From Rivularia sp. PCC 7116 (lineage in GTDB: Bacteria > Cyanobacteriota > Cyanobacteriia > Cyanobacteriales > Nostocaceae), in assembly GCF_000316665.1 (NCBI RefSeq), contig NC_019678.1, forward strand, positions 682,001 to 746,000: 64,000 nucleotides of DNA, read 5' to 3'. The notes under the pieces were generated by a model. The model did no database searches. It was not told the origin of the DNA and saw nothing but the letters and a program-made list of their open reading frames with translations. This document shows positions 5,144-24,191 of this stretch, piece after piece. How positions within the stretch are numbered: position 1 is the first letter of the stretch; every line of letters begins with the position of its first letter. Both the position numbers and the translations under genes were made by a program.

Positions 5144-7042
5144 CTAAGTAGATATTGGAGGTGGTTCGTTAACTGGTGGTTCAGCCGCTGGAGGCTCTGT
5201 TGTTGGCGGATTTGGAGGAGTTTGTGGAGTTGTCGGTGTTGGACTTCCACCGCCGTTTGTGGGTGGAGGTTCCGGTGTTTGTGGCATTGGACTTCCACCA
5301 CCGTTGGTTGGTGTTGTTGGTGAAGGTTCCGGTGTTTGTGGCATTGGACTTCCACCACCGTTGGTTGGTGTTGTTGGTGAAGGTTCCGGTGTTTGGGGCA
5401 TTGGACTTCCACCACCGTTGGTTGGTGTTGTTGGTGAAGGTTCCGGTGTTTGTGGCATTGGACTTCCGCCGCCGTTGGTTGGTGTTGTTGGTGAAGGTTC
5501 CGGTGTTTGGGGCATTGGACTTCCACCACCGTTGGTTGGTGTTGTTGGTGAAGGTTCCGGTGTTTGTGGCATTGGACTTCCACCACCGTTGGTTGGTGTT
5601 GTTGGTGAAGGTTCCGGTGTTTGTGGCATTGGACTTCCGCCGCCGTTGGTTGGTGTTGTTGGTGTTGTTGGTATTGTTGGTGTTGTTGGTGAAGGCTCCG
5701 GTGAAGGAGTCACTGGTGTTGGACTCCCACTACCTGTTGTTGGTGTCGTTGGTGTTGTTGGTGAAGGCTCCGGTGAAGGAGTTACTGGTGTTGGACTCCC
5801 ACTACCTGTCGTTGGTGTTGTTGGTGTTGTTGGTGAAGGCTCCGGTGAAGGAGTCACTGGTGTTGGGCTCCCACTACCTGTTGTTGGTGTCGTTGGTGTT
5901 GTTGGTGAAGGCTCCGGTGAAGGAGTTACTGGTTTTGGACTTCCACCGCCGTTGGTTGGTGTTGTCGGTGTTGTTGGTGAAGGCTCCGGTGAAGGAGTTA
6001 CTGGTTTTGGACTTCCACCGCCGTTGGTTGGTGTTGTCGGTGTTGTTGGTGAAGGCTCCGGTGAAGGAGTTACTGGTGTTGGATTTCCACCGCCGTTGGT
6101 TGGTGTTGTTGGTGTTGCAGGCGTTGGACTTCCGCTATTACTAGGTGGGGTTAAATTATTGTTGTTATTGGATGGTGATTTATCTTCGTTTATCTCAGGA
6201 GTATCTGTAATAAAGTCTCCCGTTTCTAACCAAGTATTTGTAGGTGGATTATCAGCAACTTGCTCGCCTGGTTGTTCCGAAGCAACAGGACTCAATTCTA
6301 GAAAAGATGGATTTTCAACTATTTTATCGCCAACAATCGGCTCCTGTTTTGCTACAGCTTCAGACGTTTCTGCTTGAACACTAGCTATGGCAGCATCTTC
6401 AGATCCTGTATCGCTTGAGTTAGTTAAATCAAGTCCCCGTACTAAATCGCTTGTATCATAAAAAGTTCTGAGGTCAAAATTGTATAATCCCTCAATTCTT
6501 CCTTTAACTACTACTATTAACTGTCCCGCTTTAAGTACTCGAGAGCGAGATTCATCTTTATTAAAAACTTCTATACCGCTATTAGTCAGCGAACCTACTA
6601 CTGTAGTATCTGTTTGCTCATCGTATCGTACAAACAATGCCGAACCACGAATAGTTGCAGCCGCGCTACGGGTTCTTACTCTTGTTCGTCCTTGCCCAGG
6701 TGGTATAAGCAATAGCACGGTTCCGTTCGATAGTCTAAATGTTCGAGTTCTGGGCAAAAATCTAAATACTGCTCGCTCACCAATCCGCGCTAAAGAACCA
6801 TCGTTGAAACGCAAGTCAGCCAAAGAAGCCCTACCTGTAGCTAGTCCATCTCCAGGATTCATAGTATCCCTCCTTCTGGCTCGCCGTTTAGGTCGATTCC
6901 GAGGCATAAGTTGTACCCAGTTATGCAACTTCTTTACTACAGCCCTAGTCAAAGGAGTTGATGCACTTGCCTTTTGTGGCATTGGCATCACTACAACTCC
7001 ACATAATGTAACAATCGCTAAAGGAACTAACTTGCGGAACAT
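5144..7042 (-). CDS. Secreted FecR-domain protein with long Pro/Thr/Gly/Ser repeat tail
   Basis: A 632-residue exported protein. An N-terminal signal peptide has a hydrophobic stretch in residues 6-22 and ends near KASAS. A FecR-type domain follows at about 60-190, with the pattern ATGRASLADLRFNDGSLARI and then VRTRSAAATIRGSALFV. In cyanobacteria such stand-alone FecR domains are predicted periplasmic or surface ligand-binding modules rather than iron regulators. Residues from about 295 to the end are low-complexity repeats. The first set has units such as TTGSGSPTPVTPSPEPSPTT. The second has about seven copies of the 19-residue TNGGGSPMPQTPEPSPTTP. The tail resembles an extended linker that could span peptidoglycan. 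The repeats create long meaningless frames on the other strand. Confidence 0.85.
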   Translation of the reverse strand: MFRKLVPLAIVTLCGVVVMPMPQKASASTPLTRAVVKKLHNWVQLMPRNRPKRRARRRDTMNPGDGLATGRASLADLRFNDGSLARIGERAVFRFLPRTRTFRLSNGTVLLLIPPGQGRTRVRTRSAAATIRGSALFVRYDEQTDTTVVGSLTNSGIEVFNKDESRSRVLKAGQLIVVVKGRIEGLYNFDLRTFYDTSDLVRGLDLTNSSDTGSEDAAIASVQAETSEAVAKQEPIVGDKIVENPSFLELSPVASEQPGEQVADNPPTNTWLETGDFITDTPEINEDKSPSNNNNNLTPPSNSGSPTPATPTTPTNGGGNPTPVTPSPEPSPTTPTTPTNGGGSPKPVTPSPEPSPTTPTTPTNGGGSPKPVTPSPEPSPTTPTTPTTGSGSPTPVTPSPEPSPTTPTTPTTGSGSPTPVTPSPEPSPTTPTTPTTGSGSPTPVTPSPEPSPTTPTIPTTPTTPTNGGGSPMPQTPEPSPTTPTNGGGSPMPQTPEPSPTTPTNGGGSPMPQTPEPSPTTPTNGGGSPMPQTPEPSPTTPTNGGGSPMPQTPEPSPTTPTNGGGSPMPQTPEPSPTTPTNGGGSPMPQTPEPPPTNGGGSPTPTTPQTPPNPPTTEPPAAEPPVNEPPPIST

Positions 7043-20943: not shown

Positions 20944-21391
20944 GCCTAATTTTATTGCTAAGTGATTTATTTTAGGAAATATTATTATCTTGGCAAAAAT
21001 TGGGACAAATATTTGTATTGTTTGTAGATTTGCTGGAAAATTTTTTGGAAATAATCAATTTATCTACAGTTGGAGATTATTGTAGATTCGCCAGCAAATC
21101 CTCAAACAAGACTATATTTCTGTGATTTTAGACATATAAAGGCAAAAATAGTCATGAGTATTACATTCAGGCAAAATGAGCAAATATTGTGACCAGCAAT
21201 ACCAGCATTAAATCAAATGTTATCGTTTGGTGATATTTGAGATCGAAGAGTTAGTGGTCTGTTTACTAGCTTTGATAGGGTTTATCCAATCCCACTACTT
21301 ATTTCTAATTCTCCAGTAGGCTGCTGTAAAACCTTTCAAATTTAATCCAATCTAACAGCAGCACTACCTAAAAGAATAATTTTTTAATCTC
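20944..21391. other. Gene-free stretch before the tRNA-Y RNA array
   Basis: About 450 nt without convincing frames. Short near-repeats of TTTGCTGGAAAAT and TTCGCCAGCAAATC are present at 21029-21097. Nothing else was recognised. Confidence 0.4.
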
Positions 21392-21420
21392 TTGACACTC
21401 TATAATACATATACTACATT
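21392..21420 (+). promoter_or_regulatory. Candidate sigma-70 promoter of the tRNA-Y RNA array
   Basis: A perfect -35 hexamer TTGACA at 21392-21397 is followed after 17 nt by TACATT at 21415-21420 as a -10. A start near 21427 would lie about 70 nt before the first composite RNA. It is the best promoter-like sequence upstream of the array and of the Ro gene. Predicted by eye only. Confidence 0.5.
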
Positions 21421-21498
21421 AGTAATACAGAGCGAGAAACACAGAAAATTGTTTCTGCTGTCTAATTACACAAAAAACTCAAAATTTCAAATATTTAA

Positions 21499-21628
21499 GC
21501 AGGGATAGTTTAGTAGCCTAGAACGCCGTAAATATCCTTATTCACAACTAGCCCCATAGGGGACGAAGAATTTAGGGTTATCGCCTTCCACGCCGGAGAC
21601 GCGGGTGCAAATCCCGCTCCCTGCTCCA
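21499..21628 (+). ncRNA. Composite RNA 1: tRNA-Gly(TCC)-like body with inserted Y RNA-type hairpin
   Basis: Acceptor GCAGGGA (21499-21505) pairs perfectly with TCCCTGC (21618-21624) and is followed by T and an encoded CCA. The D stem is GTTT/GAAC (21508-21524) and the T stem GCGGG/CCCGC (21601-21617). A 54-nt insert (21529-21582) splits the 5' strand of the anticodon stem between positions 29 and 30. Without it, CCGGC/GCCGG would form a perfect stem with loop CTTCCAC, anticodon TCC. The insert folds as a hairpin: CCCC (21552-21555) with GGGG (21559-21562), then GACGAAG at 21562-21568, matching the GNCGAANG motif of bacterial Y RNAs. Odd points: the T loop is TGCAAAT, not TTC, and the D loop lacks the GG pair. 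These suggest a tRNA mimic. Confidence 0.75.
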
Positions 21629-21661
21629 ATTAAATTTAATTCATGAGTTATAACTTTTGAG

Positions 21662-21826
21662 GTAGGGGTGGCCGAGTGGTTTAAGGCAGCAACTTTTATT
21701 CCTTGATTAACAACTTGCCCGCTTAAGGGACGAATATTAAGGGTTATCGTAATTTTTGACAATAGAGCTATCTGAAAATTAATTTTCAGAGGTATCTGTT
21801 CGTAGGTTCGACTCCTACCCCCTACA
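21662..21826 (+). ncRNA. Composite RNA 2: class II (Ser/Leu-like) tRNA body with inserted Y RNA-type hairpin
   Basis: Acceptor GTAGGGG (21662-21668) pairs with CCCCTAC (21819-21825). The D arm is GCC-GAGTGGTTTAA-GGC as in Ser tRNAs. The T arm is GTAGG/CCTAC with a normal TTCGACT loop. A long variable arm is present: CTGAAAA (21772-21778) with TTTTCAG (21783-21789). The Y-type hairpin core spans about 21698-21749, with CCTT/AAGG lower stem, ACAACTTGCCC, and GGGACGAATATT. Unlike RNAs 1, 3 and 4, I could not restore a clean anticodon stem by removing the insert, so the anticodon is undetermined. No CCA is encoded. Either a more decayed member or one that was never a working tRNA. Confidence 0.65.
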
Positions 21827-21857
21827 TCAAAAAAAAATCAAAACATCAATATTCATG

Positions 21858-21986
21858 TGGCGAGTAGCTCAGTTGGATAGAGCGACGGAAGTATATCCTT
21901 TTTCACAAACTTACCCTTCGGGGACGGAGAATTAGGTTTATCGTCTTAATCCGTGCGTCGCAGGTTCAAGTCCTGCCTCGCCACCA
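21858..21986 (+). ncRNA. Composite RNA 3: tRNA-Lys(CTT)-like body with inserted Y RNA-type hairpin
   Basis: Acceptor TGGCGAG (21858-21864) pairs with CTCGCCA (21977-21983), followed by CCA. The D arm GCTC-AGTTGGATA-GAGC and the T arm GCAGG-TTCAAGT-CCTGC are fully canonical. The insert lies at about 21890-21943, between position 31 and the U33 position. Without it, ACGGA (21885-21889) and TCCGT (21950-21954) pair perfectly around a loop ending TCTTAA, anticodon CTT (Lys). The hairpin tip is CCC-TTCG-GGG, a UUCG tetraloop, followed by GACGGAG. This is the member most like a true tRNA. A Lys-CTT tRNA is not usual in cyanobacteria, which normally decode both Lys codons with TTT (from general knowledge). 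Confidence 0.75.
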
Positions 21987-22011
21987 AAAAACCGAAACAA
22001 ATACATCTATG

Positions 22012-22136
22012 TGGTAGGTAGCTCAGGAGTTAGAGCGCTTAAACATCTTTGTTCAAAACTTGCCCTATCGGGGACGACGAATAAAGATTACCGCCTGTCA
22101 AGCGAGAGGTCGCGGGTGCAAATCCCGCTCTACCAC
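22012..22136 (+). ncRNA. Composite RNA 4: tRNA-Asp(GTC)-like body with inserted Y RNA-type hairpin
   Basis: Acceptor TGGTAGG (22012-22018) pairs with TCTACCA (22129-22135, one G-U). The D stem is GCTC/GAGC and the T stem GCGGG/CCCGC (22112-22128). The insert is 52 nt (about 22041-22092), again within the 5' strand of the anticodon stem. Its removal gives CTCGC or CTTGC pairing with GCGAG (22102-22106) and loop CTGTCAA, anticodon GTC (Asp). The hairpin lower stem is ATCTTT/AAAGAT, six perfect pairs differing from the sister copies by compensating changes. The tip is GCCC-TATC-GGGG, then GACGACG. The T loop is TGCAAAT as in RNA 1, lacking the U at position 55. It ends 36 nt before the Ro gene start. 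Confidence 0.75.
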
Positions 22137-22172
22137 CTTCCATTTTGTCCGTAAGGGCTGGGAGTTAAAATA

Positions 22173-23777
22173 ATGAACTATAAATTTTTTACTCAAAAAA
22201 ATCAAAAAACGCCACAAAATCAACCCATCCCTGGCAGAGAAGCAGAAATGATTCGGGGACGTAGCGGTGGTTATATGTTTGATGCTGGTATATGGCAAAT
22301 GCTGCGCCGCTGTTTGCTGATTGGTACCGCAAAAAGTACTTATTATGCTGGGAAGCGTGAATTAACAGAAGATTTTGTCTCAACCGTGCAAGAAGCTATT
22401 GCTAAAAATCCCAGTCGCGTTGCTGAAGAAATTCTTTATGCTAGCGATGGACGTGCCATCAACAACAGCGCTCCTATTTTTGCTTTAGTGTTGCTTTCTA
22501 TGGGTGAAACACCTGAAGCTAAAGCTGCTTTTACAGAAATCTTTCCGAAAGTTGTCCGTACTGGAAGTCATTTTTATGAATGGTTGAGCTATACAAAGTC
22601 GCTGCGAGGTTTTGGTAAAGTTGTGCGGGAAGCCGGTAAAACTTGGTTATCTCGCCCCGATGCTAAAGGTTTGGCTTATCAATTGTTGAAATATCAGCAA
22701 CGTCATGATTTTACAAACCGCGATGCTTTGAGGTTGTTTCACGTTAAACCACCAACTCCCGACCATGAATTATTGTTTCATTGGGTAGTCAAAGGTTGGG
22801 AAGAATTACCAACGAATATTCCCAGTGAAGCTTTGGCACAAATTTGGTGGTATGAATGGTTGAAGCGCAATCCAGATAGAGCTACTGAAGCAATTACTAA
22901 AGGACGCTTAACCCATGAAATGACTGCACCAGTAGCCAAAATGGATAAGCAAGCTTGGCAATTGTTATTCAATGAAATGCCAATTGGTGCAATGTTGCGT
23001 AACCTAGGTTCGCTAACTGAATTAGATGTATTACGAATCGATGAACCTGCAAGCCTCGATAGAGTTGAAGCTGTTTTAAATAGTAAAGAACATTTGCGTA
23101 AAGGACGTATTCATCCCATTGATGTTTTGAAAGCCCTCAAAACCTATCAGTCGGGAGGTAAATTAGGACGCAGTAAAAAAACTTGGAATCCAGTTAGCCG
23201 TATTGTAGACATTTTGGAAAAAGCGGTAGAACTGTCTTTTGATGTGGTCGAACCCACAGGTAAAGTGTTCATGCACGCTGTTGATATTTCTGGTTCCATG
23301 TCTTACACCAGTGTGAGTTCTATTGGACTTACCTGCTGTGAAATTGCCACAACGATGGCGCTGGTTACCGCAAAAGCTGAGAAAAACTACATGATTCGCG
23401 GGTTTGCTACAGACTTCCGCAACTTGGGAATTACTGCTAAAGATAGTTTTAGTTCGGCGATCGCCAAAGCTAGCAGTCAAAACTTTGGCGGAACTGATGC
23501 TTCAGTTGCTTATGAATGGATGATTAAAAACAACTTCAAAGCCGACGTAATTTGTTTTTGGACTGACTCAGAAAGCTGGGCTGGTAGAAGTCATCCATCG
23601 CAAGCTTTGGCAAGATATCGCGAAAGAGTAAATCCCAATGCCAAAGCTGTCTACGTCACTCTGGCACCTTACCGGATTACTTTGGTAGACCCCAAAGACC
23701 CTTTTTCCTGGGACATTGGCGGATTTGACCCAGGTGCGCCGCGTTTGATTCAGATGTTGGCTAAGGGTGGTTTCTAA
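22173..23777 (+). CDS. rsr: Ro60/Rsr-type TROVE and von Willebrand A domain RNA-binding protein
   Basis: A 534-residue orthologue of the Ro 60-kDa autoantigen. The N-terminal two thirds (about residues 25-360) are the TROVE HEAT-repeat ring that binds Y RNAs and the ends of misfolded RNAs. The C-terminal third is a vWA domain with a complete MIDAS: DISGSM near residue 371, the Thr in GGTDAS, and FWTDSES. In Deinococcus, Rsr and a Y RNA gate polynucleotide phosphorylase for RNA decay and quality control. The ATG at 22173 has GGGAG at 22160-22164. Four composite RNAs with Y-type hairpins lie just upstream and one downstream, strongly suggesting that these are its RNA ligands. The protein is intact. 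Confidence 0.93.
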   Translation: MNYKFFTQKNQKTPQNQPIPGREAEMIRGRSGGYMFDAGIWQMLRRCLLIGTAKSTYYAGKRELTEDFVSTVQEAIAKNPSRVAEEILYASDGRAINNSAPIFALVLLSMGETPEAKAAFTEIFPKVVRTGSHFYEWLSYTKSLRGFGKVVREAGKTWLSRPDAKGLAYQLLKYQQRHDFTNRDALRLFHVKPPTPDHELLFHWVVKGWEELPTNIPSEALAQIWWYEWLKRNPDRATEAITKGRLTHEMTAPVAKMDKQAWQLLFNEMPIGAMLRNLGSLTELDVLRIDEPASLDRVEAVLNSKEHLRKGRIHPIDVLKALKTYQSGGKLGRSKKTWNPVSRIVDILEKAVELSFDVVEPTGKVFMHAVDISGSMSYTSVSSIGLTCCEIATTMALVTAKAEKNYMIRGFATDFRNLGITAKDSFSSAIAKASSQNFGGTDASVAYEWMIKNNFKADVICFWTDSESWAGRSHPSQALARYRERVNPNAKAVYVTLAPYRITLVDPKDPFSWDIGGFDPGAPRLIQMLAKGGF

Positions 23778-23843
23778 TTGATTAAATAATTAAATATGAG
23801 ATGGGGAGATAGAATTAAAAATTTCTCTCCTTCTCTCAATCAC

Positions 23844-23954
23844 GGCGGGTTTTCCTTGTTCGCAACTTGCCTATCTGGGGACGATGAATTTAGGATTACT
23901 GGATAAAATCTCCACCATTGTGGGGATGAACGGGTTCAATCCCCGTACCCGCCT
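23844..23954 (+). ncRNA. Composite RNA 5: Y RNA-type hairpin in a reduced tRNA-like body (no D arm)
   Basis: Acceptor GGCGGGT (23844-23850) pairs perfectly with ACCCGCC (23947-23953). The T arm ACGGG-TTCAATC-CCCGT (23930-23946) is canonical. The D arm is missing: the Y-type hairpin starts right after the acceptor strand (core about 23853-23899, with GCAACTTGCC, TATCT, GGGGACGATGAAT and CCT/AGG lower pairs). A second hairpin of eight pairs follows, ATCTCCAC (23908-23915) with GTGGGGAT (23920-23927), with only a 4-nt loop and so no usable anticodon. This looks like a YrlA-type Y RNA whose tRNA-like module mimics only acceptor and T arm. It lies 66 nt after the Ro gene stop and could be co-transcribed. 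Confidence 0.7.
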
Positions 23955-24191
23955 TTATTTCTAATGTTTACAAATATATTATTTCTTTTATTCACTAAAA
24001 TATATTTCAATCACAAGAAGGTTTAATTTAATATTTAGTATTTGCTAATCATTAATTTAAACAGGATAAATGTGTACTAAGAATGATTTATTTATATTCA
24101 TAAATATGCCTTGAGAGCAGTTTAGTAAAAATATATAACTGTTAAATTATTGATGAAAATTATTTGCAGTTTATAATTTAATACCAAAAAA

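Follow-up and report, generated by a model that had tools for sequence, protein, structure and literature searches.

A Ro60/Rsr locus of Rivularia sp. PCC 7116 enclosed by predicted Y RNAs in unpermuted tRNA form

The Ro60-binding motif consists of CUUG opposite GNCGAA(N)G within a bulged helix, and PNPase is the partner for the Deinococcus Y RNA. YrlA (RF02553; Salmonella structure 6CU1) shares with the locus analysed here that it adjoins a Ro60 orthologue, carries CUUG opposite CGA in its Ro stem and includes a module of T arm, acceptor stem and D arm; its order runs from the 5′ side of the Ro stem through T arm, loop-closed acceptor stem and D arm to the 3′ side of the Ro stem, and the 6CU1 RNA is described in passages of PMC11472068 as a circular permutation of tRNA. 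In Salmonella, Ro60, Y RNAs and RtcB are under shared stress-responsive control in the rsr-yrlBA-rtcBA RNA repair operon, a single RtcR-activated unit (excerpts of PMC7790460). In Anabaena PCC 7120, the translation-stress repressor TrcR acts at an 8-mer in the promoter −10 region, with rtcB and a tRNA-type array as targets, according to sections of PMC10272220, in whose main text "TROVE" and "Ro60" have 0 occurrences and rsr is unmentioned. Furthermore, cyanobacterial tRNA-Lys, tRNA-Gly and tRNA-Arg were reported to carry insertions of 22-49 nt, which are read as "group I introns" in PMC5733544, the relevant passages of which draw no connection to Ro60.

We analysed a window of 64,000 nt from contig NC_019678.1 of Rivularia sp. 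PCC 7116, in which rsr is enclosed by five tRNA-like RNAs, four on its 5′ side and one on its 3′ side. The features are as follows.

21392..21418, + strand: array promoter/operator, with TTGACA at 21392-21397, a 13-nt spacer and ATACTACA at 21411-21418
21499..21628, + strand: Y1, tRNA body GCAGGGA/TCCCTGC with D arm, T arm and TCCA end; Y hairpin at 21532-21583
21662..21829, + strand: Y2, tRNA body with a long variable region; Y hairpin at 21698-21749
21857..21987, + strand: Y3, 8-bp acceptor GTGGCGAG/CTCGCCAC and complete anticodon stem ACGGA/TCCGT; Y hairpin at 21893-21943
22011..22139, + strand: Y4, tRNA body with 8-bp acceptor GTGGTAGG/TCTACCAC; Y hairpin at 22043-22093
22143..22164, + strand: hairpin in the rsr leader, similar to the Y apex: TTTTGTCC-GTAA-GGGCTGGGAG, GGGAG in its 3′ side
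22173..23777, + strand: rsr, Ro60 orthologue of 534 aa with TROVE and vWA_Ro60 domains
23844..23957, + strand: Y5, acceptor GGCGGGT/ACCCGCC and T arm, D arm absent; Y hairpin at 23850-23901 right behind the acceptor strand; additional hairpin with CTCCACC

The initial annotation had described five RNAs sharing a hairpin of about 50 nt around a TROVE/vWA gene, and all five were found at the places it gave, each by a covariance model. Its start positions hold for Y1, Y2 and Y5, but Y3 and Y4 begin one base earlier (21857 and 22011), with acceptor stems of 8 bp; the long variable region of Y2 is a detail that it did not contain. The rsr product matched vWA_Ro60 (PF25045) with 126.7 bits (cut-off 27.7, 1.1e-36) and TROVE (PF05731) with 53.7 bits (cut-off 23, 2.6e-14), and scored 3e-69 against D. 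radiodurans Rsr (2nvo), with PDB 1yvp and 2nvo aligning across almost the full length. Residues D371, S373, S375, T441 and D465, which we take to be the MIDAS of the Rsr vWA domain, are unchanged in seven aligned Rsr proteins.

The hairpin was searched with covariance model R2, trained on 22 hairpins of other cyanobacteria with the window left out. R2 matched exactly the five hairpin positions listed above (36.1-52 bits, E 1e-10 to 7e-7) and nothing else in the 64-kb window at E<=10, and over the whole 8.73-Mb genome it returned these five only (E 1.4e-8 to 1e-4), the next match having an E of 2.8. When 27 hairpins were aligned with MAFFT, 95.5% of the stem cells paired versus a shuffled mean of 87.7, and 25 cells were altered on both sides of a pair versus 8.1 shuffled, neither value being reached in 500 shuffles; the claimed co-variation of the stems was thereby upheld, though the number of pairs with two-sided change (6 versus 4.0) is a weaker statistic, equalled in 28/500 shuffles. 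Across the window and 80 Rsr loci, 321 matches were obtained at E<=0.01, of which 292 contain CTTG, 257 contain GNCGA and 238 contain both in this order; the strict string GNCGAA(N)G, a reference motif taken in part from the RF02553 consensus, is present in 113/321. In the single-sequence minimum-energy fold of Y3, the consensus hairpin does not form. The hairpin that replaces the anticodon loop is predicted to be a Ro60-docking element that would be bound by Rsr.

The bodies around the hairpins had been called near-complete tRNAs of different identities. An acceptor stem and a T arm are present in all five and a D arm in four, whereas Y5 has none; the bodies do differ, but the anticodons given by ARAGORN shift with the option chosen, so no tRNA identities were assigned, and "different identities" is to be read as different bodies and not as proven amino-acid identity. 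ARAGORN called 0/5 RNAs as tRNA by default and 3/5 with introns allowed, and Rfam at gathering thresholds over the whole window found 0/5, while a local search of RF00005 on Y2 scored 36.8 bits (cut-off 29) and spanned the interrupted body. The ends of the RNAs pair as an acceptor stem with probabilities of 0.47-1.0 (32/37 pairs >=0.9), and the arms follow in tRNA order.

A tRNA-end parse requiring 7/7 acceptor pairs, a T stem and a length <200 nt succeeded for 222/262 upstream matches, compared with 10-19/262 for shuffled flanks (5 runs) and 87-92/262 when the 3′ flank was taken from another match (3 runs). A stricter parse that added U8, a D stem and T-loop bases succeeded for 197/262, versus 0-2 with shuffled flanks and 68-75 with a foreign 3′ flank. 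The 40/262 unparsed matches, which have T-loop inserts or are short or divergent copies, were excluded from the counts on 222. The parsed RNAs have 74 distinct acceptor stems that vary at each of the seven pairs; because 7/7 pairs was the filter, their 100% pairing is true by construction, and the flank controls are the fair test. U8 is found in 218 of the 222 and the D-loop GG in 190, whereas counts for T54, C56 and A58 are biased, as these bases were part of the parse score. CCA is encoded in 99/222 parsed copies. Upstream copy number ranges from 1 to 11 per locus, with T-loop inserts or small repeats in some copies. Measured against a tRNA, these RNAs have acceptor, D and T arms with the conserved bases, except that Y5-type RNAs are without a D arm, but instead of an anticodon arm of 5-bp stem and 7-nt loop they carry the hairpin in the place of the loop.

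In contrast to YrlA, these RNAs run from the 5′ acceptor strand through the D arm and a Ro hairpin closed by its own loop to the T arm and the 3′ acceptor strand, and the ends are formed by the acceptor stem, whereas in YrlA they are formed by the Ro-binding stem with the tRNA module permuted. YrlA itself mimics a tRNA whose parts are circularly permuted, so that its relation to these RNAs is one of permutation; the initial annotation, which mentioned a tRNA-like module in YrlA, did not bring out this relation. The best RF02553 match at the locus (26.8 bits, cut-off 69) runs from the T arm of Y2 to the D arm of Y3. An RNA of Gordonia phage Cashline also stays under the cut-off of 69, with 42.2 bits (E 2e-6), despite its YrlA order, and the Rfam gathering criterion is therefore strict. 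The Cashline RNAs contain the same motif words reversed in order, with a TTCG-closed acceptor and an open Ro stem, which is the permuted YrlA form. Phage Ro-like genes resemble the Rivularia locus in that Y-type RNAs lie immediately upstream of rsr, and unpermuted tRNA-embedded copies were found on viral contigs in 11 of the 18 matches inspected among 23 viral hairpin matches (E<=1, many weak).

The covariance-model check of co-occurrence with TROVE genes, set beforehand, was carried out on 386 genomes of the phylum with a hairpin limit of E 0.001, weaker hairpins being scored absent. Hairpin and Ro60 match occurred together in 32 genomes, the hairpin alone in 2, a Ro60 match alone in 10 and neither in 342, which bears out the predicted co-occurrence and supports the proposed Ro system with tRNA-embedded Y RNAs that Rsr would bind. 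The hairpin is present in 32/32 genomes with the cyanobacterial-type Rsr. One of the two hairpin-only genomes has a weak 30-nt match and the other (G385) a decayed relic, a degenerate hairpin copy with rsr gone, for which a search for rsr remains found none. The ten Ro60-only genomes comprise four with an Rsr divergent from that of the window and six with weak or partial Ro60 matches, and one of the ten (G044) has two weaker hairpins, of 30.8 and 30.7 bits, at its rsr locus. All 321 matches share the strand of rsr; 262 of them are located upstream of the gene, 58 are downstream and 1 falls within a long rsr match (L050). One locus (L037) has its match downstream only, and at another (L066) rsr is preceded by the leader hairpin but by no Y hairpin match in its 2.4 kb upstream. 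In Picosynechococcus PCC 7002, a widely used laboratory strain, rsr is on plasmid pAQ7 with one clear hairpin (46.8 bits) and one weak one (E 0.06), both within a stretch without a listed gene, in a gene table that omits RNA genes.

Upstream of the array, ATACTACA equals the TrcR site known from footprinting, TGTAGTAT, read as its reverse complement, and in 62/75 arrays the exact 8-mer lies <=420 nt before the first hairpin, versus 0.047 expected per such window. The 8-mer operator stands at the promoter −10 region as in the TrcR regulon, with the word reversed relative to PMC10272220; the array resembles the trn operon of Anabaena PCC 7120 presented there, a tRNA-type array that is a TrcR target with a −10 8-mer, rtcB being a target too, but has the opposite 8-mer orientation. 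This TrcR-type promoter was missed in the initial annotation. A strict promoter pattern occurs at 3 sites in the Rivularia genome (control 1), namely at the array, upstream of rtcB and at one further site, behind which the same strand holds no ORF >70 residues; a looser pattern gave 18 sites (control 7). In 60 genomes of the family, 57 sites fitted the strict pattern and 31 its reversed control; of the 57, 30 loci were read, and 17 of these lead to neither rsr nor rtcB. A published study records a TROVE gene that is up after erythromycin in Chlorogloeopsis (C. fritschii PCC 9212). The promoter sequence suggests that the array may be induced by translation stress jointly with the RNA ligase RtcB, each at its own locus behind a comparable TrcR-type promoter, unlike the single Salmonella operon (PMC7790460, excerpts).

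A leader hairpin like the Y apex, not noticed earlier, lies at the ribosome-binding site of rsr in 77/81 loci versus 2.2 expected, a post hoc test, as the motif was defined after inspecting leaders; the motif is lacking in L043, L053, L059 and L073. GGGAG on its 3′ side is probably the Shine-Dalgarno sequence. For viral rsr, 71/81 loci were entered, one without a start and two too short were left out, and the motif was found in 15 of the 68 counted, a fraction that overstates the independent cases because several viral loci are near-duplicates. The leader hairpin suggests autoregulation of rsr.

Other explanations were weighed against these data. In one alternative, the RNAs come from real tRNA genes and the hairpins are small introns, which would be cut out before the two halves are ligated, perhaps by RtcB, whose gene shares the promoter type. 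The insertions in PMC5733544 lie, in the passages concerned, at the same anticodon-loop position and share the motif words CTTGxCT, AAGxC and GAAGAAT, among them those of tRNA-Lys and tRNA-Gly. In a register-specific test, 5/5 anticodon-stem pairs were found in 23/115 distinct RNAs versus 2.5 shuffled, and with such a complete stem some, including Y3, could be tRNAs carrying an insertion. The mode is at 3. A less specific score, the longest run in any register, gave no excess of residual stem above shuffled partners; we rely on the register-specific test and do not call the stem absent. However, 84/115 have <=3 of 5 pairs. A group I core is far larger than 50 nt, and no Rfam group I intron match (catalytic core, RF00028) was obtained at E<=10 in 21300-24000. 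With the hairpin also tied to rsr across genomes and Y5 without a D arm, we regard the intron explanation as very unlikely. If the RNAs were tRNA pseudogenes in decay that share a repeated insertion and have no functional relation to rsr, this could account for the copy number of 1 to 11 and the small repeats, but the covariation, the partner-specific acceptors, the single orientation of all 321 matches, the 32/32 co-occurrence and the degenerate copy where rsr was lost (G385) make this extremely improbable.

That the RNAs are decoys soaking up anticodon nucleases or other tRNA-attacking toxins, a possibility raised for YrlA in part of PMC7790460, would agree with the promoter type common to rtcB and the copies in viral contigs; such toxins usually target the anticodon loop, however, which is what these RNAs lack, and we consider this very unlikely. 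The bodies might instead be a mere processing or stability device of Rsr-binding Y RNAs, with no effector, a variant of our preferred interpretation that does not exclude it. The hairpin is conserved while the bodies vary widely (74 acceptor stems), some copies have T-loop inserts, and acceptors of 8 bp together with reduced anticodon arms speak against a role in translation; yet U8, GG and the T-loop bases are kept, perhaps beyond the needs of a cutting handle, and the tRNA module of YrlA is described as an effector-binding domain (passages of PMC8394870), so that this variant appears possible but doubtful.

We hold it highly probable that an RNP operon for Ro60/Rsr is encoded here, with Y RNAs that bind Ro60 and keep the unpermuted order of a tRNA. 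A single transcript from the TrcR-type promoter (21392) would carry four tRNA-embedded Y RNAs and then rsr, with the fifth just past rsr, and each RNA would be excised like a tRNA, by RNase P and 3′ tRNA processing. The product would be a tRNA-shaped body whose anticodon loop is the hairpin with the CUUG/GNCGA motif, bound by Rsr, and the body might gate the Rsr ring or tether Rsr to a tRNA-binding partner, as has been suggested for YrlA. YrlA is a circular permutation of this module; in the Rivularia RNAs it is the Ro stem that is closed, while the acceptor end is open. Rsr in excess of Y RNAs would bind the look-alike leader hairpin and block its own translation. Under translation stress, the Ro RNP and RtcB would be induced, and the Ro RNP may then handle damaged or unfinished stable RNA. 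We tentatively combine these points as follows: the tandem tRNA-embedded arrays may be unpermuted, possibly ancestral, bacterial Y RNAs, from which YrlA would arise directly if the processing register moved by one unit, so as to take in the T arm of one RNA, the acceptor, the spacer and the next D arm; tRNA maturation would release several RNAs for Ro docking from a single stress-induced transcript, and Rsr may gauge the Y RNA supply via the hairpin that mimics the Y apex at the ribosome-binding site of its own mRNA.

The unpermuted form bears on the old puzzle that bacterial Y RNAs are tRNA-like yet scrambled in order, and it offers a possible explanation for the reported cyanobacterial tRNA "introns". 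A simple model of rsr autoregulation arises from the leader hairpin, and the shared promoter type points to Ro60 as a translation-stress component alongside RtcB.

The locus, carried on the forward strand of an 8.73 Mb genome, starts with a promoter followed by four tRNA-like RNAs; rsr, the gene for the Ro60 orthologue, and a fifth RNA complete it:

21392-23957 (+): whole locus, opening with the promoter
21499-22139 (+): Y1 to Y4, four tRNA-like RNAs 5′ of rsr
22173-23777 (+): rsr, encoding Rsr with TROVE and vWA_Ro60 domains
23844-23957 (+): Y5, the RNA 3′ of rsr

The best contig-search matches of this rsr were cyanobacterial. Acceptor-like paired ends and a T arm are common to Y1 to Y5, with a D arm added in Y1 to Y4. 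In all five the anticodon-loop position is taken by a hairpin of ~50 nt, the predicted Ro60 docking site. This hairpin is built of a lower stem, UUC/GAA, a CUUG strand facing GNCGA, and an upper stem capped by a small loop of its own, and it ends with a conserved GTTATCG-like stretch. In Y5 the acceptor strand leads directly into the hairpin, and an extra hairpin replaces the D arm.

A covariance model trained on 22 hairpins, all from other genomes, matched the five expected places and nothing else in the window at E≤10, and in a whole-genome scan with the same model the next match had an E of 2.8. The hairpin stems covary: in an alignment built without structure information, 25 cells were altered on both sides vs 8.1 in shuffled alignments, a value reached in 0 of 500 shuffles; the count of pairs altered on both sides was less decisive (6 vs 4.0, reached in 28 of 500). 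The minimum-energy structure of Y3 folded alone lacked the hairpin.

The distribution was assayed at E≤0.01 in 81 sources, namely the best 80 of 170 Rsr relatives plus the window. All 321 hairpin matches lay on the rsr strand, with 262 upstream of rsr in 79 of the 81 sources and 58 downstream in 57 sources; one locus (L050) had a single match inside its rsr match, another (L037) a downstream match only, and a third (L066) zero matches at this cut-off. Upstream copies ranged from 1 to 11 per locus in this best-80 set, the maximum being in Prochloron didemni (L043). Next to the upstream matches, tRNA ends could be parsed in 222 of 262; the controls gave 10-19 when the flanks were shuffled and 87-92 when the 3′ flank was borrowed from another match; with U8, D stem and T-loop bases added, the counts were 197, 0-2 and 68-75, respectively. 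An eighth acceptor pair was present in 209 of the 222 parsed RNAs (G-C in 182), and CCA was encoded in 23 by the 7-bp and 76 by the 8-bp reading. For the 58 downstream matches of the same best 80 of 170 plus the window, a 7/7 acceptor was found in 53, the GGCGGGT/ACCCGCC acceptor in 50 and CTCCA in 47.

Some T loops contain a short repeat insert of the GGTACCCTACGGGAAGC or GGTATGCCTCCGGC type, resembling small dispersed repeats (carriers L008, L009, L032, L033, L051, L055 and L056; second repeat type in L038 and L058). Elsewhere in the host genome, six tRNA matches, two of them weak and ~100 nt, lie within 800 bases on one strand (G000:C1:6855537-6856319); this is a second tRNA array, partly degenerate.

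Among 386 genomes of the phylum (hairpin limit E≤0.001, Ro60 scored by vWA match), 34 had the hairpin, 42 a Ro60 match (39 exceeding the curated cut-off) and 32 both; by coordinate comparison the hairpins of these 32 are no farther than about 3 kb from the Ro60 match, bar one extra site in G143. That site (L127, G143:C3:861366-861417) is a strong match distant from rsr, immediately behind a tRNA-like stretch. The two hairpin-only genomes are G248, with a 30-nt match, and G385, with a degenerate copy without rsr; the latter (L126) retains, at 5830-6182, hairpins in degenerate form together with an RNA of the downstream type although rsr is gone, which suggests that the array erodes after rsr loss. 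Ten genomes had Ro60 only, with a divergent Rsr in four and otherwise weak or partial matches; Rsr of G127, G021, G041 and G044 is just 31-37% identical to that of the window. ARAGORN called 21 tRNAs around rsr in G127 (L122, by eye perhaps phage-derived) and 27 in G044 (L125), the latter stretch also holding two weak hairpin matches within tRNA-like bodies and a YrlA match of 38.4, below the cut-off of 69. In 81 viral rsr loci, 23 hairpin matches at E≤1 were all on the rsr strand, and full tRNA bodies surrounded 11 of 18 inspected. Y-type hairpins 5′ of rsr in viral loci L191, L203, L147 and L169, some tandem, had no recognisable tRNA body.

The alignment of YrlA, the known bacterial Y RNA (RF02553), runs Ro stem 5′ strand, T arm, loop-closed acceptor, D arm and Ro stem 3′ strand (ACUUG), and an excerpt of PMC11472068 superposes YrlA (6CU1) onto tRNA via circular permutation. 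The cyanobacterial RNAs keep plain tRNA order with the Ro stem closed, whereas YrlA closes the acceptor and is permuted. In direct contrast to the cyanobacterial order, an RNA of Gordonia phage Cashline has, by eye, an acceptor capped by TTCG and the common motif words (GGGCCGGAG...CGGTTACC and ..CAACATGCCCGC) at both RNA ends; it matched RF02553 over its full length (42.2 bits, E 2e-6, under cut-off). The top YrlA match in the window (26.8 bits) spans from the T arm of Y2 to the D arm of Y3; a register shift within an array of this kind would yield a YrlA. In the first array RNA of L004, L005, L006, L009, L038 and L080 (e.g. L038 3154-3206), the Ro helix is, by eye, opened elsewhere: a CUUGCC..GGCCGA hairpin is followed by AUUGAGGG, which forms a closed stem with CCCUUAAU via a separate loop. 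This arrangement resembles a third way of connecting the same helix.

An excerpt of PMC5733544 reports insertions of 22-49 nt, termed 'group I introns', in the anticodon loops of three cyanobacterial tRNAs. Two of these, from Gloeocapsa PCC 73106 and Nostoc PCC 7107, have CTTGxCT, AAGxC and GAAGAAT in common, words that fit the hairpin of the window. Because 23 of 115 distinct RNAs have a complete 5/5 anticodon stem (shuffled 2.5), a minority, including Y3, could be tRNAs carrying an insertion; however, no group I match was found at the locus, and in most distinct RNAs the stem comprises roughly three pairs (4 pairs in 8, 3 in 51 and fewer in 33, vs 12.4, 32.0 and 68.2 shuffled). As a whole, the RNAs are quite likely Y RNAs that bind Ro60 and keep the tRNA form unpermuted.

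The rsr leaders are also alike in the 81 sources (best 80 of 170 plus the window), with a short TTG-stem-loop-stem right before the start codon that resembles the apex of the Y hairpin. A post hoc motif, composed after inspection of these leaders, was found in 77 of 81 vs 2.2 in dinucleotide shuffles, and three of the four misses carry GGCCGTAG instead; the stems compensate (CCC/GGG 40, CCT/AGG 30, CCT/GGG 4, TCC/GGG 3). Such a hairpin occurred in 15 of 68 viral leaders, several near-duplicates, vs 1.9 shuffled, some with the complete CTTG...CCGAA motif. The simplest reading, which we somewhat favour, is that Rsr would regulate its own gene through the leader; no obvious report of such self-control stood among the papers listed by a literature search.

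The array promoter consists of TTGACA, a 13-nt spacer and ATACTACA. According to an excerpt of PMC10272220, the footprint of the translation-stress repressor TrcR in Anabaena covers TGTAGTAT, located at the -10 box of the trn operon (26 tRNAs); rtcB is another target, and repression is relieved by elongation inhibitors. The window word is the reverse complement of this trn site, in the opposite orientation. In 62 of the 75 arrays that had sufficient sequence (best 80 of 170 plus the window), the operator word stands no more than 420 nt 5′ of the first hairpin; these loci hold 83 copies in 742,606 bases, or 0.047 expected per 420-nt stretch. The strict promoter pattern had three sites in the whole genome (reversed control, 1): the Y RNA array, 5′ of rtcB, and one without an ORF >70 residues downstream on its strand. 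In the rtcB gene itself (G000:C1:3553350-3555068; L219, L221, L223), the match to the RtcB domain is interrupted inside a single frame of 605 aa, and the junctions look intein-like. In 60 family genomes the pattern occurred 57 times vs 31 in the reversed control, and 30 sites read lay before rsr (8), before rtcB (5) or neither (17). This control count slightly lowered our confidence, and TrcR probably controls the array. In Chlorogloeopsis fritschii PCC 9212, excerpts report the TROVE gene dramatically up with erythromycin, for a reason unknown there (PMC6424891), and the TROVE (log2 4.5) and RtcB (log2 3.5) genes among the top risers in far-red coculture (PMC11423583); hairpins and operator are present in strain PCC 6912 (L004), the expression data being from the other strain.

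The sequence, its structural support, its distribution and the operator word are direct observations, and RNA processing, Rsr binding, a partner for the tRNA body and regulation would be the steps of the proposed mechanism. Chen et al. (2014) reportedly found Y RNAs beside Ro60 in many bacteria, a survey that may include cyanobacteria. The literature searched on Y RNA/Ro60/YrlA, cyanobacteria, tRNA arrays and introns did not describe this arrangement. Given the Y RNA reading, the tRNA body of these unpermuted RNAs would more plausibly act as an effector or gating module, and less probably as a mere processing handle.
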